Virus record (IMG/VR): IMGVR_UViG_3300037493_000370
Span: 1 to 31,195 of that record
DNA length: 31,195 nt
DNA from: a virus
Reading direction: 5' to 3' (one strand)
In this document: positions 12,794 to 29,630 of the stretch, in pieces
How the letters are laid out: every line of letters starts with the position of its first letter
Numbering within the stretch: position 1 is the stretch's first letter
Notes under the pieces: generated by a model
Database searches by the model: none
Told to the model about the DNA's origin: nothing
The model's input: only the letters and a program-made list of their open reading frames with translations
Translations under genes and position numbers: made by a program

Positions 12794-15700
12794 ATGGCTG
12801 AAATAAAAAATAGTTTTTTATTATCTAAAATGAATAAAGATTTAGATGATAGACTTATACCTAATGGTGAATACCGAGATGCTCTCAACGTATCTATTGG
12901 TAAATCAGAAAATAACGATATTGGAACATTACAGAATATATTAGGCAACAGTATAGTAGGAGGTGAAAATACTATTATAGGTTTGGAATGTATAGGATAT
13001 TATATGGATAACACCAATAATAGAATATATCAATTCTTAACAAATGCTGGGGATAATGATCCAGATCCTGTGTATCATCAAATAACCGTATATGATTTTT
13101 CAACAAATGAATATACTGTATTAGTAGAAGGAGCATTTTTAAATTTTTCAAAATCCTTTCAAATTACAGGAGTCAATTTACTTGAAAATTTATTATATTG
13201 GACAGATTATAATAATCAACCTAGAAAAATAAATATACAATCTGCATTAAATGCACCGGCATATAGTGCAGCACCTTATTATACAAATGAAGACCATATA
13301 TCCGTTGCAAAATATGCGCCGGTAGAAGCAATGTCCATGTATAAAAAATTTGTTACGACCAATACAGCCGTTGTAACAACTTCACCTATCATACCAGTTG
13401 CAGACGCATCCGGTATAGTAGAAGGAATGACCTTATTAGCGGACTCGCCAACTCCTTATACAAGTAATGAATTTATTTTTGTAGAAAGTATTGTTGGAAC
13501 TAACGTGACCGTATCGGGACCTGTTACATTGCCTATTAATACAGAGTTAACATTTTTAATATCCACCATGACCAATGAGAGTGATGACCCCAATTGGCCT
13601 GGTGATCCTGCATATTTAAAACCTAGATATGTAAGGTTTAGTTACAGATTTAGATTAGACGATGGGGAATACACTTTAATGGCTCCCTTTACCCAAATAG
13701 CATTTATACCAAACCAAAAAGGTTATTTTATTAATGGAGATGAGACTGAGGCTTATACTAGTACTGTATTAAATTGGTTTGAAAATAATGTAAATAATAT
13801 ACAATTATTAGTTCCATTTCCAGATTTAACCACTAATGTAACGCAATCTTATAAAATACAAGCATTAGATATATTATATAAAGAATCTGATGCTCAAACA
13901 GTAAAGGTATTAGATACAATTTTAAGTGGGCAATTTGCTCAAAATACATTAGGTAATAGTAATATATATGCTTATGATTATCAATCAAAAAAGCCTTATA
14001 AGACATTGCCTCCAGACCAAATCACTAGAGTATATGATATAGTTCCTGTAAGAGCAAAAGCTCAAGAAACTATTAGTAATAGAATAGTATATGGTAATTT
14101 TATTAGCGGATACACAGCTCCAGCTTCACTTAATTATCAGGTATCTGTAAATCAAAAACAAGATTATTCATACAATTTTATAGAATACCCAAATCATACA
14201 GTAAAACAAAATAGAACCTATCAAGTTGGGTTTGTTTTAGCTGATAAATATGGAAGACAATCCTCTGTTATTTTATCTTCATTAGATACGAGTGCAACAG
14301 TAACAGCTAATGGAACTTACGGCGGATCCACAGTATATTCCCCGTATTATTCATATTCAGATATACCATCTATAAAAGATTGGTATGGTAATGCAATATC
14401 AGTATTGGTTAATAATCCAGTAGTCTCTTCATATAATCAAACGACTGGAGAGCCTGGTCTATATGCGGAATCAACATCAACAACTGGGTTTACATTAACC
14501 GGTACTACTACAATAACCGATACAACATATGACTTTGAAATTAGTGCTGGTACACCTCCTAATCAATATGAATATTTGAGAGGAGCTTATACAGATTACG
14601 TTAGGGTTGAGTCAATTACAGAAGTTTCTGCAGGAGTATACAATTCAGTTACTTCTGGAAGAGTAAATGATTTATATGCAAGAAATACGGATAATGATCC
14701 TGCTGATATTAAATATGTATATACTATAAATCCTTTAGGATGGTATTCATATAAAATAGTAGTTAGACAACAAGAGCAAGATTATTACAATGTATATCTA
14801 CCCGGGTTTTTGGATGGTTATCCAGCCGGTCAAACTTATGGCACGCAAGTAGTTTATGATCCTACATCAGGGAATGCAACCACGGTAAATGGTATTAATA
14901 CTACAACTTTCCCGACTACTGAATCAGGAATAGTAGCTCATACAGTTTTAATAAATGATAATATAAATAAAATACCAAGAGACTTAGTTGAAGTTGGACC
15001 TGACCAAAAGCTATATAGAAGTAGTGTGCAATTATTTGGTAGGGTAGAAAATACTATTGCTGCGGGTATTGCTGGAAATACACAATATTATCCTTCTAAA
15101 AAAGCAGATACGGCAATTGCAATTGCATCGGCATCGGAGTTAAGTTTTTTACCAGCAACGGTTGAAAATACATTAGGTTCTGCAACTTATAATTTCTATC
15201 AATTAGAGAGTGATCCATTGGTTGCTCGTATATCAACAGTTGATCATATTGGAGTTATAGGTGTACAAAACGTAAGTTCTGGTGGGCCAACCCCTACATT
15301 TTCTTCGGATCCAAATAACATGCTACCTTTTTTAAGCATTTATGAAACAAAACCAGACTATTCTTTATTAGATATATTTTGGGAAACCTCAACAAGTGGA
15401 TTGATATCTGATTTAAATACTGATGTACTTACTGGATCTGATGGTGCAAATGGTATAAGCGAAATAAATTGGAGTACATTTACAGAAGATTTAGATCCTA
15501 ATGATCCTACTGATAAATTTATAACAAATTATTTTTACCCTGTATCAAATACAGGTAACCCGGTAGACTCTACTAGTCCATCAATATCCGTTTTTAATGC
15601 GTCAAATCCTAGTAATCCAATAACAGGAGTTTTTGCATTAGAGAGTACATATGTACCCGGGCTTAATCCATATTGGAAATATAGAATATATGTGCAGCCT

Positions 15701-16990
15701 AATCAGTTTCAAGTATTTAGAAACGACGTAAATTTAACTAATTATACCTTTGTATTTTCTTTTATACAAGCCGGGCAAACCGCAACAACTTCATACAATC
15801 TAAATGCTAAATTAATAAACATTGCTCCAACTATAACAGATAGTGCGTTAAACCCAATATCTGGTCCAATCAATTTATATTTAACAAATCCTATAACAAC
15901 CGGAACAGCTATATATAGTTTATGGGGTAAAAATGGATCTAATCCAGGAGCGGGAGGGTTCCAATTTACAACTGACCTTAAATGGAGAATAAATAATACG
16001 GGTTCGACGGCAGGTTGGCAAAACTATTTTAATATAGTCACAACAGAGCCATTGAAACTTGGCGGTATATTTCAAACCGCTCCTTTAAATCCATTGCAAA
16101 CAGTAACATTAAATGTTGAATTACAAGACGCAATGAGTTCGTCTGGTGTTCCAGCAAATGGATCAGGGGTGTATGGATCTTTAGCCGATAATATAACTAT
16201 AAATATTCAATTAGCTACAACGCCTACGATTTGTGGAAGAACTTGGACAAGTCGTAATTATGATAGTACAACTTATAATGATGTTAATAGAACTCCAATA
16301 CCTCAAATAACTACCGCAACTGCTTGGGCTAATGCCACAACCGGTGCGTGGTGTTGGCCAAATTTTGACCCTAATTTAGGCGCAATATATGGTAAATTAT
16401 ATAATGGATATGCTATAAAAGGTATTTGGAATTCATCAAATCCAGGTGATAGAAAACAATTTGCACCAACCGGATGGAGAATACCATTTTATTTAGAAAG
16501 CTGTGTATTAAACTGTACTAACGGTACTCACATGAAATCACTTGTGCCAGCGCCAGGATCAGCAAATGGTTGGGAGGCTAATATTCACACAGGAGACAAC
16601 AGCACCGGGTTTTCGGCTTTACCAGCAGGATATATGGATCAAACCGGTACATGGATACAAAGTGGGTCTAATGGAAAAATTGCAATATTCCATATGGATT
16701 CACCAACAGGGCCAACTCCAGTTCAGGAGTCTTTTATGGTTCTTTATGGAAATCTTGATGCGGTTCAATTTGACTCTGAAAGTCAATTAAAATGGGGTCT
16801 TTCGGTAAGATTTATTGATAATTCTTCTGTTACTAGAACAGCTACAAGAACCTCGCCGGGAATTTGTACGCTTCAATATAACGATATGAATCATGGAAAT
16901 CCTCATTTTGACGTTATATCTCAAGGGCAAACTGAAACATTTACAGCCTGTTCTGCATGTACTATAATTAGCACCTGCACAATAACATAA
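12794..16990 (+). CDS. tail hub protein with C-terminal FISUMP (lectin-like) domain
   Basis: This is a 1398-aa beta-rich protein. The first 60 residues (D-L-D-D-R-L-I-P-N-G-E-Y-R-D-A-L-N-V, then G-T-L-Q-N-I-L-G-N) match the start of P22 gp10-like tail hub/stabilisation proteins of podoviruses. A long series of beta segments follows, probably propeller- or blade-like. Around 1008-1145 there is a cadherin/Ig-like segment (N-I-A-P-T-I-T-D, then D-L-K-W-R-I and V-T-L-N-V-E-L-Q-D). Residues about 1146-1340 carry the hallmarks of the Fibrobacter succinogenes major paralogous (FISUMP) domain: C-G-R-T-W, G-K-L-Y-N-G-Y-A (1200-1207), P-T-G-W-R-I-P (1225-1231) and S-T-G-F-S-A-L-P-A-G-Y (1270-1280). A Cys/Thr-rich tail ends it. 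Receptor or glycan binding at the tail tip is inferred. Confidence 0.78.
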   Translation: MAEIKNSFLLSKMNKDLDDRLIPNGEYRDALNVSIGKSENNDIGTLQNILGNSIVGGENTIIGLECIGYYMDNTNNRIYQFLTNAGDNDPDPVYHQITVYDFSTNEYTVLVEGAFLNFSKSFQITGVNLLENLLYWTDYNNQPRKINIQSALNAPAYSAAPYYTNEDHISVAKYAPVEAMSMYKKFVTTNTAVVTTSPIIPVADASGIVEGMTLLADSPTPYTSNEFIFVESIVGTNVTVSGPVTLPINTELTFLISTMTNESDDPNWPGDPAYLKPRYVRFSYRFRLDDGEYTLMAPFTQIAFIPNQKGYFINGDETEAYTSTVLNWFENNVNNIQLLVPFPDLTTNVTQSYKIQALDILYKESDAQTVKVLDTILSGQFAQNTLGNSNIYAYDYQSKKPYKTLPPDQITRVYDIVPVRAKAQETISNRIVYGNFISGYTAPASLNYQVSVNQKQDYSYNFIEYPNHTVKQNRTYQVGFVLADKYGRQSSVILSSLDTSATVTANGTYGGSTVYSPYYSYSDIPSIKDWYGNAISVLVNNPVVSSYNQTTGEPGLYAESTSTTGFTLTGTTTITDTTYDFEISAGTPPNQYEYLRGAYTDYVRVESITEVSAGVYNSVTSGRVNDLYARNTDNDPADIKYVYTINPLGWYSYKIVVRQQEQDYYNVYLPGFLDGYPAGQTYGTQVVYDPTSGNATTVNGINTTTFPTTESGIVAHTVLINDNINKIPRDLVEVGPDQKLYRSSVQLFGRVENTIAAGIAGNTQYYPSKKADTAIAIASASELSFLPATVENTLGSATYNFYQLESDPLVARISTVDHIGVIGVQNVSSGGPTPTFSSDPNNMLPFLSIYETKPDYSLLDIFWETSTSGLISDLNTDVLTGSDGANGISEINWSTFTEDLDPNDPTDKFITNYFYPVSNTGNPVDSTSPSISVFNASNPSNPITGVFALESTYVPGLNPYWKYRIYVQPNQFQVFRNDVNLTNYTFVFSFIQAGQTATTSYNLNAKLINIAPTITDSALNPISGPINLYLTNPITTGTAIYSLWGKNGSNPGAGGFQFTTDLKWRINNTGSTAGWQNYFNIVTTEPLKLGGIFQTAPLNPLQTVTLNVELQDAMSSSGVPANGSGVYGSLADNITINIQLATTPTICGRTWTSRNYDSTTYNDVNRTPIPQITTATAWANATTGAWCWPNFDPNLGAIYGKLYNGYAIKGIWNSSNPGDRKQFAPTGWRIPFYLESCVLNCTNGTHMKSLVPAPGSANGWEANIHTGDNSTGFSALPAGYMDQTGTWIQSGSNGKIAIFHMDSPTGPTPVQESFMVLYGNLDAVQFDSESQLKWGLSVRFIDNSSVTRTATRTSPGICTLQYNDMNHGNPHFDVISQGQTETFTACSACTIISTCTIT

Positions 16991-17019: not shown

Positions 17020-18615
17020 ATGAGTGCAACAATAGAATTAAAATATTTCAATTCTTTTTGGCTTAAAAAAATGAAGTCAATAACTGATGTAGCGCCTAGC
17101 GCTCCTGATGCTCTTCCAAATCATTTAGCTACGGCCGCCACGATAGGACAAACTTCTATAACATTTGCAAGCACACCGCCACTGCCAAATATAGGTCCTG
17201 GACAAGCAATTTATTATACTATATCGAGTAATACTTATACATCAATAATAAAAAGTTATTCAGGATTAGTTGTAGAATTAATGGAACCTATTGAAATTAA
17301 TATTTCAACAGCTGTAGATATTACCTTTGGCGAAATTATTGATTTTAAATATGTACCAAGTTCTAGTGATTATAGTTATGACAAAGAAACAGATTGGTAT
17401 ATAGAAGAAGCAAGAATTAGAGGCGGATATAATAATACAACCGTTGACTTTGGGGTTAAAGCATATTTGATAGCAGAAGTGAATGCTCAACAAAGTAGGC
17501 CAAACTCTCTTATATATTCTGGTATATTTAATTCTAGAACAGGAGTAAATAATACAAATCAGTTTTCTATTGCAGATGATATAACACGCACTGTAGACCC
17601 TATAAACGGATCAATACAAAAATTATATTCAGAGGATACAAACCTTATTATATTCCAAGAATTTAAAGTAAGCAGAGCATTGATTGATAAAGACGCGGTA
17701 TATTCTGCAGATGGGCAAGCAATGACTACATCAGGAGCGGCTGTTATAGGTCAAGTACAATCTTATGCTGGCAACTATGGTATTGGTACTAACCCTGAGA
17801 GTTTTGCTGTTTATGGATATAGAAAATATTTTGTTGATAGAAATAGAAATGTAGTTTTAAGATTATCTCAAGATGGTATAACTGAAATATCATCTTATGG
17901 AATGATAGACTTTTTTAGAGATCAACTTGGGTATATTGGTAGTACAGGTAAAATCATTGGTGGCTGGGATGTTCATAATAAACAATATGTTGTATCTTTG
18001 CAACCAAATGCTTTTACATCACCATCAGAAAGCAGAGGGCAGCAATTGCCATCATATACTTTAGCTTTTGACGAAGACTCATTAGGATGGACAAGCTTCT
18101 TTAGTTATATACCGAACTACATGGACGGATTACGCAATAATTATTATAGTCTCAAAGACGGTAATATTTGGGTGCATTATTCACCAAATGTTAATAGAGG
18201 TAATTTTTATGGAGTAACATATACATCTTATGTGACATTTGTATTAAATCCTAACCCTTCAATGGTTAAGAACTTTAATACCATAAACTACGAAGGTACT
18301 CAAGGGTGGATAATGAATAGTTTGTATACTGATACCGATACAGCTATACCAATAAATGCATCTTTTACTGCATCAAGTTTAGCGCAATTAGAGGCAAATT
18401 TGTTTACAAATAATTTTAAACAAAAAGAAAACAAATATTTTGGTAATATATTTAACAATACAGTCGCATCAGGCGGAGATGTTATATATGGACAATCAAT
18501 GTCCGGTATAAAAGGTTTATATGCAGTTTGTACTATGACATTAAATAATAATCTTTACCCAAATCAAGCGGAACTTTATGCATGTTCTTCTGAATATGTA
18601 GAATCATCATATTAA
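17020..18615 (+). CDS. beta-rich tail/muzzle-like structural protein
   Basis: This 531-aa protein begins with a short helix F-N-S-F-W-L-K-K and then a small beta domain (about 35-110: S-I-T-F-A-S, then G-Q-A-I-Y-Y-T-I-S, then V-V-E-L-M-E-P-I). From ~120 on there are W-Y-I-E-E-A-R-I-R-G-G-Y-N-N and V-D-F-G-V-K-A-Y, then Y-A-G-N-Y-G-I-G-T-N-P-E-S-F-A-V-Y-G-Y-R-K-Y-F-V-D-R-N and L-R-L-S-Q-D-G-I-T-E-I-S. I recognise this style from conserved tail proteins encoded next to gp10-like hubs in Bacteroidota podoviruses. The late W-x-x-F-F-S-Y repeats suggest propeller blades. It lies 29 bases after the hub gene and probably forms part of the same tail assembly. It may be a tail-end piece of what is a single long protein in some relatives. 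Confidence 0.7.
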   Translation: MSATIELKYFNSFWLKKMKSITDVAPSAPDALPNHLATAATIGQTSITFASTPPLPNIGPGQAIYYTISSNTYTSIIKSYSGLVVELMEPIEINISTAVDITFGEIIDFKYVPSSSDYSYDKETDWYIEEARIRGGYNNTTVDFGVKAYLIAEVNAQQSRPNSLIYSGIFNSRTGVNNTNQFSIADDITRTVDPINGSIQKLYSEDTNLIIFQEFKVSRALIDKDAVYSADGQAMTTSGAAVIGQVQSYAGNYGIGTNPESFAVYGYRKYFVDRNRNVVLRLSQDGITEISSYGMIDFFRDQLGYIGSTGKIIGGWDVHNKQYVVSLQPNAFTSPSESRGQQLPSYTLAFDEDSLGWTSFFSYIPNYMDGLRNNYYSLKDGNIWVHYSPNVNRGNFYGVTYTSYVTFVLNPNPSMVKNFNTINYEGTQGWIMNSLYTDTDTAIPINASFTASSLAQLEANLFTNNFKQKENKYFGNIFNNTVASGGDVIYGQSMSGIKGLYAVCTMTLNNNLYPNQAELYACSSEYVESSY

Positions 18616-18630
18616 AATAAATTAAATTAA

Positions 18631-19038
18631 ATGGAATTACAAGTACGGGCATTACAGGAAAGCGATTGGGAAAATCTGCAATCCTGGTGGAAATGGTGGC
18701 GATGGCCAGAAGTATCAAAAGAAACATTACCGCTTAATGGATTAGGCGGTTTAATGGTATATAAAGGTGACACACCGGTTGCGGCGGGGTTTTTATATCT
18801 TTCAAATTCTAAAGTGGCGTGGTTGGATTGGATTGTTTCTAATCCAGAATATAAAGAAAAGGATAGAAAACAAGCAATAGAATTGTTAATAAATTCCTTA
18901 GAAGAAGTTGCAAAACAGCAAGACTATAATATTATAATTAGTATTACAAGAAGTAAACATTTAATAGAAGCACATAAAAAATTAGGTTATATGGTGGATG
19001 AAAAGCCATCATATGAAATTTCAAAAAAAATAAAATAA
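18631..19038 (+). CDS. GNAT-fold protein in the tail gene cluster
   Basis: This 135-aa protein has the strand-helix order of GNAT acetyltransferases: V-R-A-L-Q-E-S-D-W-E-N-L (beta1-alpha1), W-W-K-W-W-R-W-P, G-G-L-M-V-Y-K-G-D-T-P-V-A-A-G-F-L-Y-L (beta2-beta3), K-V-A-W-L-D-W-I-V-S-N-P (beta4), then a helix and A-H-K-K-L-G-Y (the common GNAT C-terminal motif). The acetyl-CoA pyrophosphate loop Q/R-x-x-G-x-G/A, expected after I-V-S-N-P, reads K-E-K-D-R-K-Q-A here and lacks both glycines. So the fold is likely but catalysis is doubtful. Similar proteins occur among tail genes of marine phages; whether they modify virion proteins or are structural is unknown. It starts 15 bases after the 531-aa gene and ends one base before the next gene. 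Confidence 0.7.
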   Translation: MELQVRALQESDWENLQSWWKWWRWPEVSKETLPLNGLGGLMVYKGDTPVAAGFLYLSNSKVAWLDWIVSNPEYKEKDRKQAIELLINSLEEVAKQQDYNIIISITRSKHLIEAHKKLGYMVDEKPSYEISKKIK

Positions 19039-19737: not shown

Positions 19738-21192
19738 ATGGGATATTACGAAAATCCTCCTATAATTAACTTTACTGAGGGATATAATCAAGTTACCGCT
19801 GGCATTATTGATGCAACAAAATCTATAACGGAAGCCTTAATAAAAAGAGGGGAAAGAGAAAGACTAAGCATTGAGAAATTACAACAGCAAAAAAATGAAA
19901 CAGATTTAGAATATAATAATAAACTTTCACAATGGGATTCAAAAACTCCTATACAAAATAAAGATATTAATTCTAAGATCCATAATATATTACAACAAAA
20001 AATACAAATTGCTGCTGACGCTAAAATTGCTTTATTATCAGAAACTAATAACGAAAAACGTCAAGAGTATTTAAAACATATACGTAATGCCGATGTATTT
20101 ATGAACAATGCTGCTGAATTTGCAAAAAACGTTGCAATGGATTCAGCTACTTGGAGAGAGAATGCTTCTGCTGTTACTATCGGAGTTCCTAATGGATGGG
20201 TGGTAAATGGAAAAGATTCCAGTGAAATTATGGCTAGAACGGGCGCTCTTGAGATTATTGGGGGAATGGATCAAATGTATGAGAATTCTTCTATTGACAT
20301 TGAAGATACCGGAGATAGTTTTAAATTATTAGTTAGAGGAAAAAGAAAAGGTAGCAATGAAAGTTTTGAAATGCCTATTGATGCAAGTTCTTATTTAAAA
20401 TCTGATACTGAAGGAGGCGGAGGGTTTTTACAAAAAGTTGAAAATATAGATGAATTTGTTAAGTCCTCAAAGAAAAATTTAGTTGACGAAAAAGGTGATC
20501 TATTTGAGACATTTAAAACACAAGAGGAAGAAACCGCTAAGTTAGGAAATGGGTATGAAAGGATATATGGTAGAAGACTTAAAACCGATGAAATAAAAAC
20601 CGAAATTTCAAAACAAGCATATATAAAAGCCCAAGGTTATTTAAGAGCAGGTAAAGAGTCTAGTTTAAGATCTTTACTTAATTATACGTTAGAGCAAGGA
20701 CCAGAATATTATGACGCTGAATTTAAAGGTAAATTTACTACCGTAGAAGCACAAACAGCTAAGTTAGCTGAGTTACTAACTGAGAAATCATTTCAGTCAA
20801 TTACAAGGGACCATAGGACTTCAAAAGAAGGTGATAAAGATGTTTATTGGTCTGTTGATTCTAAGGTTTCAAAAATTGAAGAACCAACAAAAAGCGGTAA
20901 AGGAGGAAAAGGAAACACGGGTTTTCAATCAGGCGAAGTGCAAATATTTGATCAACCACAAATAGATAAATATATGCAAGCTTATGCAAGGGCTTTTGAG
21001 AATAAAGACGAACCTTTTATTATATCTTGGACAGGAGCAAGAGGAGGTCAAAATGAAGAAACATTCCAATTTTACAATGGTAAAGTTAGAAGAATCGACG
21101 GCGGTAGCGCTATAGCTTTTAATGATTCAAAAGAGTTTAGGGATTATTTAAGATCAAAGAAAACAGTAAAGAAAACGCCTTTAAAAGCATAA
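19738..21192 (+). CDS. putative internal/ejected virion protein
   Basis: This 484-aa protein is mostly helical in the first 150 residues (a long heptad-rich stretch with E-K-L-Q-Q-Q-K-N-E-T-D-L-E-Y), with a small beta domain around 195-235 and further helices to the end. A Gly/Lys-rich linker (G-K-G-G-K-G-N-T-G) lies near residue 390 and a basic C-terminus near 470-484. No enzyme motif is apparent. It lies between the 225-aa and 2806-aa proteins, as the middle-sized internal core protein does in T7-like phages (gp14, gp15, gp16). I infer a role in the ejection apparatus, but sequence alone does not show this. Its stop is 17 bases before the giant gene. Confidence 0.6.
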   Translation: MGYYENPPIINFTEGYNQVTAGIIDATKSITEALIKRGERERLSIEKLQQQKNETDLEYNNKLSQWDSKTPIQNKDINSKIHNILQQKIQIAADAKIALLSETNNEKRQEYLKHIRNADVFMNNAAEFAKNVAMDSATWRENASAVTIGVPNGWVVNGKDSSEIMARTGALEIIGGMDQMYENSSIDIEDTGDSFKLLVRGKRKGSNESFEMPIDASSYLKSDTEGGGGFLQKVENIDEFVKSSKKNLVDEKGDLFETFKTQEEETAKLGNGYERIYGRRLKTDEIKTEISKQAYIKAQGYLRAGKESSLRSLLNYTLEQGPEYYDAEFKGKFTTVEAQTAKLAELLTEKSFQSITRDHRTSKEGDKDVYWSVDSKVSKIEEPTKSGKGGKGNTGFQSGEVQIFDQPQIDKYMQAYARAFENKDEPFIISWTGARGGQNEETFQFYNGKVRRIDGGSAIAFNDSKEFRDYLRSKKTVKKTPLKA

Positions 21193-21209: not shown

Positions 21210-24200
21210 ATGTTAGAATACGTAAATGAAAATGGAGAGTCTTACACAGAAGACGAAATAAATCAATTTGCAAAAGACAATAACACTTCTTTTGATGATA
21301 TAATAGCAAAAAATGGATTAACCCCAAAGAAACAAAAAGAAAATGTTTCGCCGGGAAAGCAAAAGACCGTTGCAAAAAAGGATGCAAATGCAACGGCACC
21401 AAATACGGCATCCAAATTGGCTCCTACTTCTTCGGATTCCAAAAAGCGTAAATCATTTTTTGATCAAGCAATAGAAACACCTTCTTTTGAAGAATCTGCT
21501 AATAAAGCAATAAAAGCTAAAAAAGAACAAGAAAAAATTGCATATGATTTAGAAAAATCTTTAAGAAGCTCTAGAGCAGATTTAACTAGTCAAATAACAG
21601 GACAAACTAATCCATCCACTCAAAGAAGTATTATGCTTGAGAAAGTGGATGCTGACAATTTAGCAAAACAAAAAGAACAAGAAAAAATAGACCTTGCTAA
21701 AGGAGAAATAAGACTAAAAGAAACAACTATAAGAAACGACAAAACTTATAGAGAAGCTAGTGAGTTATTAAAACAAGCTACTATTTTGCCTAAAGAATTT
21801 GAGGATGAATTAAACAATGAAATAAATTCTCAAAAAGAAAGAAATGGAAAAGCATATACAGAATACCAAACACCTGGAGGCGTAGGCTATATAGGTGGAG
21901 GGGCAAATACTGAAATAAAAAGAAAATTTATAGCTTTTGAAAACGAAAGAAAACAAGCTTTAAATGAATTTAAAAAAATAAAAAAAGCTCCTACGGAACA
22001 AGAAATTCTTAATAGAGCAGCACAAATATACAAACAAAATAAAACAGAAGAAAGACTATATTCACAAAAATGGGATGCTTTAGAGAATCTTGAGGGTTAC
22101 GGCGAAGAGGTTCAAAAGTTTTTTATTGATTATGATATTAATAAAAAAACCGTTGCAGATGATGATTTAGCAAAAACAAATGCGCAAAAAGTTTATACTC
22201 AAAAAGCATTAGAGCATTCTGTATCAAATATAGAGAATTTAAAAAAGAGGTTAAAACCTGCTGGGTATGAATATAAAACACAACAGGAAATTGATGAGCA
22301 AAATACTTTAATAGAGCAGATTAATCTTAATAAAAAAGAAATTGGAGACAATATTAAGTATTATGATAAATTATCAAACAATGAAGCGGTATTAGAAAAT
22401 GCATCGACATCTTTAGAAAAAGACATAGAGTTACAGAAAAAAGATTGGAATTGGTGGTCAAGAACAGGCAGAAAAATTTGGAACTCTTATGTAAATGAGT
22501 TTGGAGGAAGTGTAGCTGGTGCGTTAGCTTACGCCGATGATTTAATAATGAGCACTGTTACCGGAGGATCTTGGGATAATCGAATTGGCAAAGACGTCGC
22601 CAGAATGAAACAAGAGAATAAAGAAGAGTATGAGTCTAAAATGGCGCCTAACAGAGGCACTTTTACAAGTCCAGAAGCTTTTATGGAAAACGCGGCCGAT
22701 GCTATAATTAGCCAACTGCCTCAAATAATAACTATTGTATTGGCTCCCGAAGCTTACGCTCCTGAAATTGTAGGACTTGTATCTGGCGGTGTTACCGGAA
22801 CAGGTGCTAAGTACACTGAGATGATTGGTGAGCAAATGACTGGTATACCAGATGAAGATGGTATTATAAAAAACCCTGATTATTCAGTAACACAATTATT
22901 TTCTGTACCAGCATTATTTGGATTATACGAAGGCGGCTCTGAATATGTTGGAGGTCGAGCTATTGGTAGAATGCAAAAAATGTTTAGCAAAGCAACTAAA
23001 CCAGAATTAGAAGGTATTTTAGGTGCTGCTAAAACTACTATTACTAAAAAAGCAGAAGAATTCTCTAAAAATTTACTACAAAACTACGGAGAAGAAATTC
23101 CTGCTGAAGTATTTAATACTGTACTTGGTAATTTTACAGATAAAACATTATTAGGTAAAAAAGATAAAAATTTGCTTGAAGGCGTACCAGAAACAATATT
23201 TGATACCGCCGTAGTATCTACATTATTTGCTACTGCACCTCATATTGCTGGCGCGGTTTATAGACAATTTATACCTGCTACTTATGCAAAAAAACTTGTT
23301 GAAAATAATAATAGAATAGCAGATATATTAAAAGGAGTTGATTATGAAAAATTATCGCCTGAAGAAAAAACTATAATTGATGATAAAATAAAATCAATAA
23401 AAGACAACTCCACAACTATGATTAATGATGTAGCGGAATCAATTGGAGCAACGGATACTGCTACTTTACTAGATATAGACAACCTAAGTAGAGATATTAT
23501 TGATATAAGAAAGCAAGCTAATACTATTAATAATAGTAATAATCTTACTCAAGAACAAAAAGACCAATTGTTAGACGACATGGCTACACAGCACCTAGAC
23601 ACAACAACTAGGTATAATAGAGTATTAGATAATATTTACCGCGCAGAACAAGCAAACAAAAAAGTTGCTACTTGGTCAAATACCAGAAAATTAAAGTCTG
23701 ATATAAACTTAGGTAGAAATTATTTAGCTACTGTAATGGTGACTGGAAAAGATGTAAAATACGTTGCGGCATCAAATAAGGAACTTATAGATAAAGCACT
23801 AGTAAATCCAGTATATTCAAAAATAATTAATAACGAATATAATGCTTTTGTAACGGATACTAACGAAACTTATTCTCCAGAGCAAAAGTCATTGATTATG
23901 CGCTCTATAGCTGCTAATCAAGTAAAAGAGAACGGTATGTATGACGATAGAATTAATACGATCTACGTTAATAAGGATACTGCTCTTAGAAATAAAACAT
24001 TTACTACCGCTAGACACGAAGTATTCCATAAGGTTATAGAAAACTTTGCTGGTAATATGGGAGATATTGGTAAATCTTTATACTCATTTGTTAAAGAACA
24101 GCATGTTGGAGATACTAAATTTGATGACACCAAATTTGCAAAAAGAATGCAAAGAGAGTTTGATGATTTAGCTAAAGATATTGAAAAATTAGATTCTCAA

Positions 24201-27200
24201 AAAGAAGCAGGAAAAATAACATCTAAAGAATATAATGCTCAAGTTAAACAAAAAGAAAACATTGCTAACGAGGAAGTTTCTACAATATTAACGGAGTCTT
24301 TAATCGATGGCGATATTAAAATAGACAAATCAAATGCAGAAAACTTAAAGTTTGATAGCGATGGCAATGTAATAATTAACAATGCTAAGGATATGTTTAA
24401 CTTTATTGCCGCTTATAACGAGTCTTATAGTAAATCTAAAAGATCTGATATTGTTGAAGCCGCTGCGCAAGGTAAAGTAGCTGGAGAATTAATAAAAGAA
24501 ACCCCAACAAAATCCGTTAGCCAAGAGCCAAGAAGATCAAAATCTGAAGTTGACTTATTAAAAGAAAAACTAGAGGAACTTGAGGATAATGAAGGCGATT
24601 ATGATCCAGATGATTTTGATCAACAAGTAGATAATTTAAAAGCTAAAATCAAAAGAGCAATTGAAAAAGAAAAGACAGAAGTAAAACCTGTAGTTAAAAA
24701 AGAGGCATCAGACGAAGACGAGGTTAAAGAAATTGTTAGATCTGAAAAGGGATCTGTAGCTTCTGATAAAGTTCAAAAACTATATGAAGAAAAAGGATTA
24801 GCCGCTGCGCAAGATATTATTAATTTATTTAAACCTATTACAAAAAGAATAGTAGATAAGCGTAGAGACGCGCCAGGTTTTGATAGAGAATTACTTACTG
24901 ATGAAATTGAAACTGGATCTGGTGGTATATTAGATCTTATTAAAAGTTATGCAAGCGAAAAAGGAGTTCCTTTAGCTGCTTATATAAACAGACAATTACC
25001 TTTAAGGGCTATTGCTGCATCTAGAAGGGTATTAGAAGGAGACTTTAAGAAAGACGTTACAGAAGAAAAAGGGTTGATGGCTGAAGAAACTGTTTCTGAG
25101 GTAAAAGAAAAACCAAAATATAAAAATGCATTAGAATCAAATGTTTTTGAGCCTACAGTTTTAAAAACAATGTCTGACAAGATTGTAACCCAACTTCGTA
25201 CATTAAAATCCCGTATTGATGAACCCATATCGTTAAATCGTACAGTTACTCCGTTGATTGCAGAGATTAGGGATGCTATTGGTAAACAATTAGACATTGA
25301 TGTTAAAAAAGCAATGGGTGGCAAAAAAGACAACGAATTAGTAAATTGGTTGTTAAAAAATAAACGTTATGTACTTGAAAATATGACTACAACGTGGTTA
25401 ATGGGCGCTAATGGACAAGGTGGTATACCACAAGCAATACAAAAAAGAATAGATGGCAAATGGGTTAGTTATCCTGATTGGGTTGATCAAAAAATAGATA
25501 GGGAAGCTGTTTCAACTGATAATGCAGGTAGAACATCTGGAGCAGAATTAGTTAGAAGATTGCCTAATGTATTTAATAACGTATCTAATGAAGACTACTT
25601 AGGTCAAGTGGTTGGGTCTGACGGTAACCCTATACGCGGAAGAAAAGAATCATTAGCAAAAGCAGTTGCTGAGGAATCGGCATTTGATATAATTAATAAT
25701 GATTTACAAAATGATGGCCCAATTTACGATGCTCTAAAAACTAACCAGGAACGCCAGGGCCTTGTAGTCGCAGAAAATTTTAGTAATGAATTTGCCAGAC
25801 AAGCAGAACGAGGTAATGTTAAATATTCTAAAGAATTAAAATCAGAATTATCAAACAAATTAGGTGAAGACCTTAATGACCAAGATATGACAAATATTAT
25901 AAGAGGAATTATAAGTCAAATTATAAAACCTACTATATATAAAAGAAAAATGGCATTAGGGGATTTAGAACAAGATTGGAAAGAAAGATTGGGTAATGAT
26001 CTATATGAAAAAGTTTATAATGAATATTTAAGTCCAATTGCAGATGCATTAGACACTGTTCAAAATAGCCCATCAAATAAAAGAGGAGATGTTGCTGAAG
26101 ACAAGGTCATAGAGACTATAAAATCAATAGAAAATAAAGATTTTAAATTAATATCAACAACTTCTGCGGGGGCTGGATCTCACGCTGTTGATGTTCAATT
26201 TTCTTATAAAGGTATTCCTATTAATTTTGAAGTGAAATCAGGAAAATCAGACAGATTAACTTCTTTAAATATACATAATTATACGGCTAATAAAATAACA
26301 ACATCAAGGATTGTATCGGAAAATAATAAAAACAATATAATATCTCAAATACAAAATAATAGTAAATTCCAAAAATTTGTTAAAAAAGCTTTAGATAATG
26401 GTGCTACATTAACAGAAAATGGAAGTCTAGAGGTTGATCCGAAATTGCTTAATAAGTTAAAAATTGGGGGTTCAATATATGGTAAAACGCTAATTCCTCT
26501 TAGCATAGATATGGGCTTGATAAAGGACATATACAATAGGAAAGGAATAAATTATATTGGATTTGGCGATATTGGTATATTTAGTGTTGGGGAAAACACA
26601 TTGGGTATTGATGTGCCAAGTCTAGAGGGAAAATTATATTCAAAGGCTTTCCTTCATCCGGGCATCGTAAAAACCAATGGTAAAGTTACATTAACATTAA
26701 AAGTATATACTCAGTTAACAACTGAAGCTGGTAATCAATTATCTGAAAAATCTAAAGATTCTGTTTATAGCAAAGAATCATGGAGCAATTTATTTAAAAA
26801 TATTCCGGAAGAAAGAATATCATATTTAAAAAGTGTACCGGGTATTAAAGAAAATAATGAAACATCTAATGCTGTTTTAATTTCATTACAAAATGGTAAA
26901 AAATCAAAAGGTATTTCAGTTTTTGATTTTGATGATACTGTAGGATTAACAAAGAGTAATGTGCTATACACAATGCCCGACGGTTCAAAAGGTAAATTGA
27001 ATGGAGCTGAATTCGCTAAAGAAGGATCTAGATTATTAGACGAAGGCGCAATATTTGATTTTTCTGAATTCAGTAAAGTAGTTGAAGGTAGACCTGGTCC
27101 AATGGTTGAAAAGATGAAGAAAATGATTGGCAAATTTGGTGCAGAAAATTTCTTTATACTTACGGCAAGACCTGCTGATTCAGCGTTGCCTATTAAAGAA

Positions 27201-29630
27201 TTTTTAGATTCTATAGACATAAATATTCCGCTGGAAAATATAACTGGACTAGGTAGTAGTAGTCCACAAGCAAAAGCTGATTGGATTGTTCAAAAAGCAA
27301 ATGATGGATATAATGATTTTTATTTTGCTGATGATCATTTACCTAATGTAAACGCGGTTAAGAATGCTTTAGACGTATTAGATGTTAAGTCTAAAATTCA
27401 GCAAGCTCGAGCAAAGTTTAGTAAATCTATGAACTATGATTTTAATAGAATTCTTGAAGAGAACACGGGCACGGAAAGATTTAAGGTATTCTCTGATATT
27501 GTTGCAAGAAGAAGAGGTGCAAAGAAAAATAAATTTGATTTCTATGTTCCGCCATCAGCAGCCGACTTTGAGTTATTATTATATAACTTTATGGGGAAAG
27601 GTTCTAAAGGAGAACAGCACAAAAAATTCTTAGCTGAAGCATTCTTAATACCTTATACAAATGGTAATGATTTAATGGATGCTGCTAGACAATCTATTAA
27701 AAAGAATTATAAAGCATTACTTAATTCATTTCCTGATATTAGTAAAAAATTAGAAAGCCTAACTCCAGATGGAGACTTTACTTATGATCAAGCAATACGC
27801 GTTGCAATATGGAATGAATCTGATGTTGAAATACCTGGCATATCTAAAAGAGATATCGCTAAATTAACAAATTTAGTAAATGGAGACGCACAATTAAATG
27901 CTTTTAAAAACGGATTAATCTTAACTGGTAGACAAGGTAAAGGGTGGGTTGCACCTGAAGAGTACTGGGATGCTAATACAATAATATCTGATCTACATAA
28001 TCTTACTGAAGGAGTTGGAAGAAAAAAATTCTTAGGTGAATTCATTGCTAATGTAGAAGAAATATTTGGTACTTGGGATAATGGAAGATTAACTGGACCT
28101 AATATGAATAAGGTTGAAGCTTTATACGGTACCCCGGTTAGGGAAGCACTGGAAGACATTCTTTATAGAATGATGACTGGTAAAAATAAAAGTGCAGGTA
28201 ATGATAAAGAAACAACAAGATGGAGTAATTGGGTAAACGGATCTACTGGAACTATTATGTTCTTAAATACAAGATCTGCGGTGCTACAGTTACTTGGGTC
28301 AATCAACTTCTTGAACTTTAGAGATAACAATCCTGTTGCTGCAGCCGCTGCTTTTGCTAATCAACCGCAATATTGGAAAGACTGGGCTCGTATTTGGAAT
28401 TCAGATAAAATGAAGGAAAGACGCGGTGGATTAAAAGAGGATGTTGCCGCTGCTGAGATTGCTAATGCTGCTGCAGGTAGTAAAAATAAAGTGAATGCGG
28501 TTGTTTCTTATTTATTAAAGATTGGATATACCCCAACACAATTAGCAGATAGTTTTGCTATTGCATCAGGAGGTGCTCCATTCTATAGAAATAGAATTAA
28601 GTCTTACCTAAAAGAAGGTTTAACAGAAGCAGAGGCAGAAGCTAAAGCTTGGAATGACTTTACTAAAGTATCCGATGAAACACAACAGTCTGGAGACCCT
28701 AGAGATATATCTAAGCAACAAGCAAGCCCCGCAGGTAGGTTATTATTGACATTCCAAAATACCTCAATGCAGCAAGCTCGTATTGTTAAAAAAGCTTTTT
28801 TAGACCTTAAGAATCGTAGAGGAGATGATAAAACAAATATATCTAAAATAATTTATTATCTTACTGTTCAGAATTTATTATTTGCTGGATTACAACAAGG
28901 ATTATTTGCTGTTGCATTTAGTGATGATGATGAAGAAGATGAAGCATTAAAAGCTAAAAAGCAAAAAACAAAAACTGAAAAAGCAATTTCTGTTGTTGAT
29001 GATGTATTAGATACTATATTACGTGGAACAGGATTTGTAGGCGGTATAACGGTTACTTTAAAAAATATGATACTTAAATATCTTGAACAGGTTGAAAAGA
29101 AACAACCAGACTATGCTCAAGTTGTTTTTGAGGGAACTAATATATCTCCGCCAATTGGATCTAAGCTTAAGAAATTATACAGAGGGCTAGAGTTAACTAA
29201 ATACGATAAGGACCTTATAAAAGAAAGAGGTTGGGGAGTAATGCAAGATGGAAGAGTTCACCTTGGCCCAATGTATTCTGTTAGCGGTAAAGTTGTGGAG
29301 GCAACTACCAATTTACCAATGGATCGTTTGGTTAATAAAATTGAGAATGTATCTCAAGCTATGAATTCTCAAAACCAAGCATGGCAAAGAATTATGATTG
29401 GAATGGGATGGACACCATATAGTGTTGGAATTGAAGGTACACCTGGTGATATTAAAATAGAAGCAGAAGGTAAAGCTAGAAGAAAAGAAGAAGGTAAAAT
29501 AAAAGCTAAGGAATCTAGAGAAAGAAAAAGAGACTCAATCAAAAATTTACCTCTTGGAGAACAGTTGAAATTAAAAATGCAAGCTAAAGAAAAAAGATTA
29601 AAAAATAGATTAAAAAGAAAAATGGGTTGA
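21210..29630 (+). CDS. giant multidomain internal virion protein (protease, nuclease, phosphatase motifs)
   Basis: The single 2806-aa frame is intact. About 60-415: charged coiled-coil. About 425-660: amphipathic/hydrophobic stretches (N-W-W-S-R-T-G, then Q-I-I-T-I-V-L-A-P) that could insert in a membrane. H936-E937-V-F-H940 is a zincin HExxH with a possible third ligand near E1021/E1022. About 1236-1290 is a helical segment with G-V-P-L-A-A-Y-I-N. G1626 to K1676 holds a PD-(D/E)XK core: E1630, D1661, E1674-V-K1676. A full HAD phosphatase set follows: D1906-F-D1908-D-T1910, T1985, K2022, D2041-D2042. About 2338-2580 is hydrophobic (S-T-G-T-I-M-F-L-N-T-R-S) with an acidic run, and the last ~60 residues are strongly basic. 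Such fusions match the large polyvalent proteins described for phages. Position after two ejection-like proteins suggests it is packaged and injected. Individual activities are inferred from motifs. Confidence 0.85.
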   Translation: MLEYVNENGESYTEDEINQFAKDNNTSFDDIIAKNGLTPKKQKENVSPGKQKTVAKKDANATAPNTASKLAPTSSDSKKRKSFFDQAIETPSFEESANKAIKAKKEQEKIAYDLEKSLRSSRADLTSQITGQTNPSTQRSIMLEKVDADNLAKQKEQEKIDLAKGEIRLKETTIRNDKTYREASELLKQATILPKEFEDELNNEINSQKERNGKAYTEYQTPGGVGYIGGGANTEIKRKFIAFENERKQALNEFKKIKKAPTEQEILNRAAQIYKQNKTEERLYSQKWDALENLEGYGEEVQKFFIDYDINKKTVADDDLAKTNAQKVYTQKALEHSVSNIENLKKRLKPAGYEYKTQQEIDEQNTLIEQINLNKKEIGDNIKYYDKLSNNEAVLENASTSLEKDIELQKKDWNWWSRTGRKIWNSYVNEFGGSVAGALAYADDLIMSTVTGGSWDNRIGKDVARMKQENKEEYESKMAPNRGTFTSPEAFMENAADAIISQLPQIITIVLAPEAYAPEIVGLVSGGVTGTGAKYTEMIGEQMTGIPDEDGIIKNPDYSVTQLFSVPALFGLYEGGSEYVGGRAIGRMQKMFSKATKPELEGILGAAKTTITKKAEEFSKNLLQNYGEEIPAEVFNTVLGNFTDKTLLGKKDKNLLEGVPETIFDTAVVSTLFATAPHIAGAVYRQFIPATYAKKLVENNNRIADILKGVDYEKLSPEEKTIIDDKIKSIKDNSTTMINDVAESIGATDTATLLDIDNLSRDIIDIRKQANTINNSNNLTQEQKDQLLDDMATQHLDTTTRYNRVLDNIYRAEQANKKVATWSNTRKLKSDINLGRNYLATVMVTGKDVKYVAASNKELIDKALVNPVYSKIINNEYNAFVTDTNETYSPEQKSLIMRSIAANQVKENGMYDDRINTIYVNKDTALRNKTFTTARHEVFHKVIENFAGNMGDIGKSLYSFVKEQHVGDTKFDDTKFAKRMQREFDDLAKDIEKLDSQKEAGKITSKEYNAQVKQKENIANEEVSTILTESLIDGDIKIDKSNAENLKFDSDGNVIINNAKDMFNFIAAYNESYSKSKRSDIVEAAAQGKVAGELIKETPTKSVSQEPRRSKSEVDLLKEKLEELEDNEGDYDPDDFDQQVDNLKAKIKRAIEKEKTEVKPVVKKEASDEDEVKEIVRSEKGSVASDKVQKLYEEKGLAAAQDIINLFKPITKRIVDKRRDAPGFDRELLTDEIETGSGGILDLIKSYASEKGVPLAAYINRQLPLRAIAASRRVLEGDFKKDVTEEKGLMAEETVSEVKEKPKYKNALESNVFEPTVLKTMSDKIVTQLRTLKSRIDEPISLNRTVTPLIAEIRDAIGKQLDIDVKKAMGGKKDNELVNWLLKNKRYVLENMTTTWLMGANGQGGIPQAIQKRIDGKWVSYPDWVDQKIDREAVSTDNAGRTSGAELVRRLPNVFNNVSNEDYLGQVVGSDGNPIRGRKESLAKAVAEESAFDIINNDLQNDGPIYDALKTNQERQGLVVAENFSNEFARQAERGNVKYSKELKSELSNKLGEDLNDQDMTNIIRGIISQIIKPTIYKRKMALGDLEQDWKERLGNDLYEKVYNEYLSPIADALDTVQNSPSNKRGDVAEDKVIETIKSIENKDFKLISTTSAGAGSHAVDVQFSYKGIPINFEVKSGKSDRLTSLNIHNYTANKITTSRIVSENNKNNIISQIQNNSKFQKFVKKALDNGATLTENGSLEVDPKLLNKLKIGGSIYGKTLIPLSIDMGLIKDIYNRKGINYIGFGDIGIFSVGENTLGIDVPSLEGKLYSKAFLHPGIVKTNGKVTLTLKVYTQLTTEAGNQLSEKSKDSVYSKESWSNLFKNIPEERISYLKSVPGIKENNETSNAVLISLQNGKKSKGISVFDFDDTVGLTKSNVLYTMPDGSKGKLNGAEFAKEGSRLLDEGAIFDFSEFSKVVEGRPGPMVEKMKKMIGKFGAENFFILTARPADSALPIKEFLDSIDINIPLENITGLGSSSPQAKADWIVQKANDGYNDFYFADDHLPNVNAVKNALDVLDVKSKIQQARAKFSKSMNYDFNRILEENTGTERFKVFSDIVARRRGAKKNKFDFYVPPSAADFELLLYNFMGKGSKGEQHKKFLAEAFLIPYTNGNDLMDAARQSIKKNYKALLNSFPDISKKLESLTPDGDFTYDQAIRVAIWNESDVEIPGISKRDIAKLTNLVNGDAQLNAFKNGLILTGRQGKGWVAPEEYWDANTIISDLHNLTEGVGRKKFLGEFIANVEEIFGTWDNGRLTGPNMNKVEALYGTPVREALEDILYRMMTGKNKSAGNDKETTRWSNWVNGSTGTIMFLNTRSAVLQLLGSINFLNFRDNNPVAAAAAFANQPQYWKDWARIWNSDKMKERRGGLKEDVAAAEIANAAAGSKNKVNAVVSYLLKIGYTPTQLADSFAIASGGAPFYRNRIKSYLKEGLTEAEAEAKAWNDFTKVSDETQQSGDPRDISKQQASPAGRLLLTFQNTSMQQARIVKKAFLDLKNRRGDDKTNISKIIYYLTVQNLLFAGLQQGLFAVAFSDDDEEDEALKAKKQKTKTEKAISVVDDVLDTILRGTGFVGGITVTLKNMILKYLEQVEKKQPDYAQVVFEGTNISPPIGSKLKKLYRGLELTKYDKDLIKERGWGVMQDGRVHLGPMYSVSGKVVEATTNLPMDRLVNKIENVSQAMNSQNQAWQRIMIGMGWTPYSVGIEGTPGDIKIEAEGKARRKEEGKIKAKESRERKRDSIKNLPLGEQLKLKMQAKEKRLKNRLKRKMG

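Follow-up and report, generated by a model that had tools for sequence, protein, structure and literature searches.

The locus considered here raises a question with several layers, that is, which virion protein carries the FISUMP domain found at the end of one of its ORFs, where that domain came from, how it changes and what it might do for the phage. The window, by which is meant the whole 31,195-nucleotide stretch of viral DNA that was analysed (positions 1 to 31,195 of IMG/VR virus record IMGVR_UViG_3300037493_000370), had been proposed from its letters alone to encode a phage tail hub tipped with a lectin-like domain capable of recognising the host.

A FISUMP domain at the end of a crassvirus muzzle protein

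The ORF in question (ORF1, 12794..16990 on the plus strand, 1398 amino acids) is open and stops at 16990, as the original prediction had it, and the FISUMP domain at its end is genuine and above chance. Pfam PF09603 (Fib_succ_major, FISUMP) matches residues 1146-1341 (16229..16816, plus strand) with an E-value of 2.4e-16 and 61 bits, over the cut-off of 33.9, and covers nearly its full length (profile positions 3-186 of 187). It scores 65.8 bits on the DNA of the window, and the three motifs on which the domain had been called, GKLYNG (1200-1205), PTGWRIP (1225-1231) and GFSALPAGY (1272-1280), are all present. The NCBIfam model for FISUMP, TIGR02145, gives 31.5 bits (E 2.5e-7), which is under its cut-off of 41.65. 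The domain was modelled with good pLDDT as part of residues 1005-1398 (mean pLDDT 84.5), and this copy may have a C-type-lectin-like fold. The best viral fold match is BFVD A0A6J5LVS1, an uncultured Caudovirales phage FISUMP protein (E 7.6e-14, 28% identity), while the PDB fold lists for this C-terminal model are filled by its cadherin-like part, nothing but cadherin-like folds being among the matches listed, and do not speak against a lectin fold of FISUMP. Sequence searches gave no match in the PDB at E 1 (with ORF1, with the downstream ORF2 or with a 13-row FISUMP profile), none in PHROGs at E 0.5 for the FISUMP stretch alone, and none at E 0.01 when the domain was compared by tblastn with 50,697 named phage records.

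The domain is preceded by a spacer that had been described as cadherin-like, a description that is supported since residues 883-1143 of the ORF1 model match tandem cadherin repeats and residues 1007-1142 align with protocadherin 10 (6vfq_A; Z 11.3, rmsd 2.0, 101 residues), so that this repeat has the EC fold. There are two such repeats, the first at residues about 883-1002 (15440..15799) and the second at residues 1007-1142 (15812..16219), both on the plus strand. The Pfam cadherin family PF00028 has no match in the window's own ORF1 and is found at E 0.01 in 10 of 69 ORF1 C-termini of relatives. FISUMP is followed by a small cap with several cysteines and no Pfam family (residues 1342-1398, 16817..16987, plus strand), which is modelled as four beta-strands with pLDDT about 90-95.

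The carrier of this arm is the N-terminal half of a crassvirus muzzle and not a tail hub; the placement on a tail-tip protein stands, the hub has to be replaced. The crassvirus muzzle is a hexameric plug at the tail tip. PF25731 (crAss_MUZ) matches ORF1 residues 13-151 with 50.4 bits and PF25729 (crAss_MUZ_C, the muzzle C-terminal domain) matches the next gene (ORF2, 17020..18615, plus strand, 531 amino acids) with 43.4 bits, the cut-off being 27 in both cases, and phrog_14478 is matched by the two ORFs in different parts (E 3.8e-47 for ORF1). Profile alignments set ORF1 1-505 on residues 1-405 of gp097 of Cellulophaga phage phi40:1 (E 8.5e-45) and ORF2 128-480 on residues 876-1202 of the same protein (E 3e-43). 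The N- and C-terminal parts of crAss001 gp44 (7qok, 7qol; PF25731/PF25729) are matched in the same manner, ORF1 1-152 falling on gp44 1-152 and ORF2 178-511 on gp44 1034-1355 (E 2.6e-10). At the level of fold, the model of ORF1 1-1145 (mean pLDDT 73.1, pTM only 0.40) matches the crAss001 muzzle 7qol_P with Z 10.5 and rmsd 4.7 over 215 residues, and its residues 52-860 fall on 7qok_A 52-908 with Z 10.4 and rmsd 11.3 over 412 residues; these two are the top matches on a second fold list, a first Foldseek list consisting mostly of cadherins. Residues 1 to about 870 (12794..15403, plus strand) correspond to the muzzle core, which comprises the peptide that joins the ring, the first blades of the propeller and the IG and crass-fold region, and ORF2 corresponds to the C-terminal half with its propeller blades. 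A hexameric state and a tail-tip position in the virion are predicted for the window's muzzle. In crAss001, according to the available text of the structural study, the tail hub is a separate set of proteins, THA/THB (PMC10172136).

Two genes for one muzzle and the exchange of its free end

In five reference phages, phi40:1 (gp097), elemoF, crAss001, Gundel_1 and MW202828, the muzzle is a single gene. Phage phi40:1 (Pervagoviridae) has the same gene order as the window, its gp097 is 1324 amino acids long and is recorded as detected by MS/MS in virions, and its record contains no FISUMP. The crAss001 protein is likewise one chain, of 1371 amino acids, whereas the window has two chains, the first of which ends in the cadherin-like repeats and FISUMP. 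ORF1 and ORF2 lie in different frames, 29 nt apart, and the window's muzzle is classed as a split variant because there are two ORFs and not one polypeptide. From the profile and fold alignments, the split falls between the crass-fold region and the propeller blades formed by the returning chain.

Such an arrangement could in principle be an artefact of a frameshift or of stop-codon reading in the window contig, all the more so since stops are recoded in some crass-like phages (TGA is read as Trp in a zeta phage, in the part available of PMC12386605) and TAG ends 14 of the ORF1s in 65 split relatives. The probability of this reading is close to nil, and it is already contradicted: ORF1 of the window stops with TAA, as do the other 51 of the 65, and ORF2 is in another frame than ORF1 not only in the window but in 46 of these relatives. 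The arrangement is also widespread, 65 of 70 complete ORF1s of relatives being followed by an ORF2 of 400-800 amino acids after a gap of 2-67 nt, and a near-invariant ELKYFNSFWLKK-like peptide, which in the window occupies 17020..17073 (plus strand), opens ORF2 in 65 out of 65 split muzzles examined. Whether this peptide could be a second docking peptide is a matter of speculation. A common origin of the peptides that start ORF1 and ORF2 was considered and dropped, their likeness being too weak (it was matched by 154 of 5000 shuffles).

Right after the muzzle genes comes a short ORF (18631-19038) encoding a GNAT-like acetyltransferase, for which PF00583 gives 18.1 bits, under the cut-off of 20.7; MW202828 too has an acetyltransferase-named gene in its muzzle region.

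How the end of the first chain behaves was followed in relatives recovered from virus contigs by means of a four-row profile; 544 were confirmed, of which 80 were kept. The 65 split-muzzle relatives give 2080 pairs, every one of which is similar (at E 1e-3) in the first 250 residues of ORF1 (median identity 49%) and in the last 250 residues of ORF2 (47%), whereas only 399 of the pairs are similar in the last 250 residues of ORF1 (34%). The exchanged part is therefore the free C-terminus of the first chain. FISUMP was found by Pfam in 8 of 69 such C-termini, PF09603 has a single match in each of 9 records out of 44 (4 of 15 and 5 of 29), and the corresponding stretches of two relatives lacking FISUMP (L008 and L041) have no Pfam family. 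In a tree of ORF1 N-termini, the clade of the window has 11 rows, all eight complete members having FISUMP and the other three rows being cut short. When FISUMP is scored as a label on the ORF1 tree, two changes are counted over 71 rows, nine of which have the domain, that is, the eight clade members and a distant split-muzzle relative (L083) in which it lies at ORF1 residues 1932-2180, behind a different C-terminal stretch. FISUMP is one of the exchanged C-terminal modules on the first chain of the muzzle.

FISUMP occurs in other virus contigs as well (L028, L029, L030 and L032), with two copies each in L028 and L029; the latter is a 322-kb record in which the domains stand beside Thr-Pro-rich linkers.

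Change and origin of the FISUMP end

That the 3' end of ORF1 might be variable had been raised at the outset, and variable it is. Between the window and its two nearest relatives, identity is 93-95% in the portal protein, 85-86% in ORF2 and 83-85% in ORF1 residues 1-1000, and falls to 59-66% in FISUMP and 53-58% in the cap. The fastest-changing stretch of the domain is formed by residues 1291-1333 (16664..16792, plus strand), just before the WGLSVRF motif, where mean pairwise identity among four relatives is 0.33, compared with 0.53 in the lowest segment of equal length (43 residues) anywhere within residues 1-1145. Since codon positions 1 and 2 differ there nearly as often as position 3 (0.47, 0.44 and 0.51 for positions 1, 2 and 3 between the window and L003, as against 0.14, 0.08 and 0.39 in residues 1-1000), most of this is amino-acid change; third positions differ at about 0.4-0.6, which is near saturation. 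Small indels occur in the FISUMP stretch too. Fast change is not peculiar to FISUMP in this genome because two downstream ORFs are about as divergent, one (19738-21192) being 61% identical to the nearest relatives and the other (21210-29630) 57-68% over the aligned part. The fast divergence of FISUMP could reflect relaxed constraint. By their position, these two ORFs may encode cargo proteins; the second is 2806 amino acids long and has no Pfam family.

Another explanation, put forward in the original prediction, is that the FISUMP end is the target of a diversity-generating retroelement (DGR), in which case a reverse transcriptase of the phage would copy a template repeat into it. The idea was reasonable. 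In the portions available of the studies concerned, FISUMP/DUF1566 domains are known DGR targets in human-gut proteins (PMC4159848) and in Bacuni phages (PMC8143477), crAss-like phages of the zeta and epsilon groups bear DGRs acting on tail fibres or receptor-binding proteins (PMC12386605, PMC11054128), and the variable repeats of Bacuni proteins lie, like the fastest stretch here, towards the C-terminus of the domain (PMC8143477). It is not borne out here and we regard it as very improbable. A search for RVT_1, which was positive in control genomes, found none in 41 records (0 of 15 and 0 of 26), eight of which are split-muzzle relatives of 60-70 kb, the FISUMP-bearing records all being partial, with the largest at 40.8 kb. 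No template repeat was found by blastn (word 7) in the window and the available stretches of three relatives. The pattern of change also argues against a DGR, change in residues 1291-1333 being greatest at third codon positions in each of the six pairs compared, substitutions involving A making up 59% in this stretch as against 63-65% elsewhere, small indels being present and codon positions 1 and 2 having no signature of adenine-directed change. Ordinary substitutions together with small indels most likely account for the change in FISUMP, which is fastest before its last conserved motif.

As for where the domain came from, a scan of bacterial genomes confirmed no relative with a 4-row profile and 562 with a 13-row profile, 80 of which were kept. 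These 80 are mostly from Bacteroidota MAGs, with Flavobacterium and Flavobacteriaceae at the top, and the best matches have 36-45% identity over 140-200 residues. The nearest cellular relative has what looks by eye like a signal-peptide start. Flavobacterium-type FISUMP proteins (such as L113) have the same domain as the window, but they are short cellular proteins and not parts of a virion. In a 107-row FISUMP tree, the domains of the eight clade muzzles form one group (SH-aLRT 94), and this group adjoins three Flavobacteriaceae or Bacteroidota sequences with a support of only 86. A tree constrained to unite L083 with the eight clade members passes the test (p-AU 0.969, a better tree having escaped the unconstrained search), so that two separate captures from bacteria were not retained as an explanation, although the ORF1 tree takes two changes of the label and L083 has the domain behind another stretch. 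Since the order of the FISUMP domains follows the ORF1 tree in outline, the sequences suggest that the domain was captured once and then inherited within the clade of the window. That it was taken from the host lineage, as had been suggested, is plausible.

What the arm may do

We take the window to come from an environmental crassvirus-like phage, a relative of the gut crAss phages, with a muzzle encoded by two adjacent genes. In the mechanism that we propose, the first chain would run from the peptide that joins the ring through the first blades of the propeller to the IG and crass-fold region of the tip before ending, and the second chain would close the propeller. The C-terminus of the first chain is predicted to lie at or near the tip, on a core model with a pTM of 0.40 and an rmsd of 11.3 to 7qok_A. 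This C-terminus would be free because the chain stops at or near the tip, without return to the propeller. In the clade of the window, it bears two cadherin-like repeats, FISUMP and a small beta cap, and FISUMP would most likely bind a glycan or a protein on the surface of a Bacteroidota cell. The arm probably serves to bind a receptor or a glycan at the tail tip, and it is predicted to be exposed and to form part of an oligomer.

Precedents exist in part. In the available text on Bacuni phages, FISUMP/DUF1566 domains are variable and putatively adhesive ends (PMC8143477), and the DGR targets of these phages resemble the window in having a FISUMP-type domain at the end of a protein, variable near the C-terminus and with a proposed role in adhesion. 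Unlike in Bacuni phages, the carrier in the window is a muzzle, change is by ordinary mutation and no retroelement was found. For crAss001, contact between the crass domain and the cell surface is no more than a proposal of the structural study, as far as its available text goes (PMC10172136).

The arm might alternatively be a decoration for general adhesion (to exopolysaccharide, for instance) or for stabilising the tail, with fibres deciding the host and divergence reflecting weak constraint. In the part available of PMC10136315, receptor binding by crAss phages is ascribed mainly to tail fibres or spikes, the separate tail fibres of crassviruses being the usual candidates for receptor-binding proteins (PMC10136315), and the arm does differ in length and kind among relatives. 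This reading is rather unlikely in our view, for one stretch of FISUMP diverges without loss of its conserved motifs, and the domain is kept in eight of the eight complete clade members, which is more than would be expected of a dispensable part.

A binding module at the tail tip, which we prefer, leads to a wider and more tentative proposal, with the odds somewhat against it: the split may have made the plug a socket, that is, a distal free C-terminus capable of taking exchangeable host-binding modules, FISUMP being one of them, across a large environmental clade. The ORF2 peptide may then dock the other six sites of a twelve-fold ring, six of each chain filling it.

Neither a split muzzle nor a FISUMP muzzle was seen mentioned in the literature searched (most subscription papers and bioRxiv preprints lying outside it), and a literature search on FISUMP and phage together gave no papers. 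The locus offers a FISUMP domain that changes fast near its C-terminal end, with no retroelement found. Crassviruses are among the most abundant human gut phages, and a two-chain muzzle with interchangeable first-chain ends would offer experiment a direct candidate for the element with which the phage recognises its host, as well as a natural swap series.
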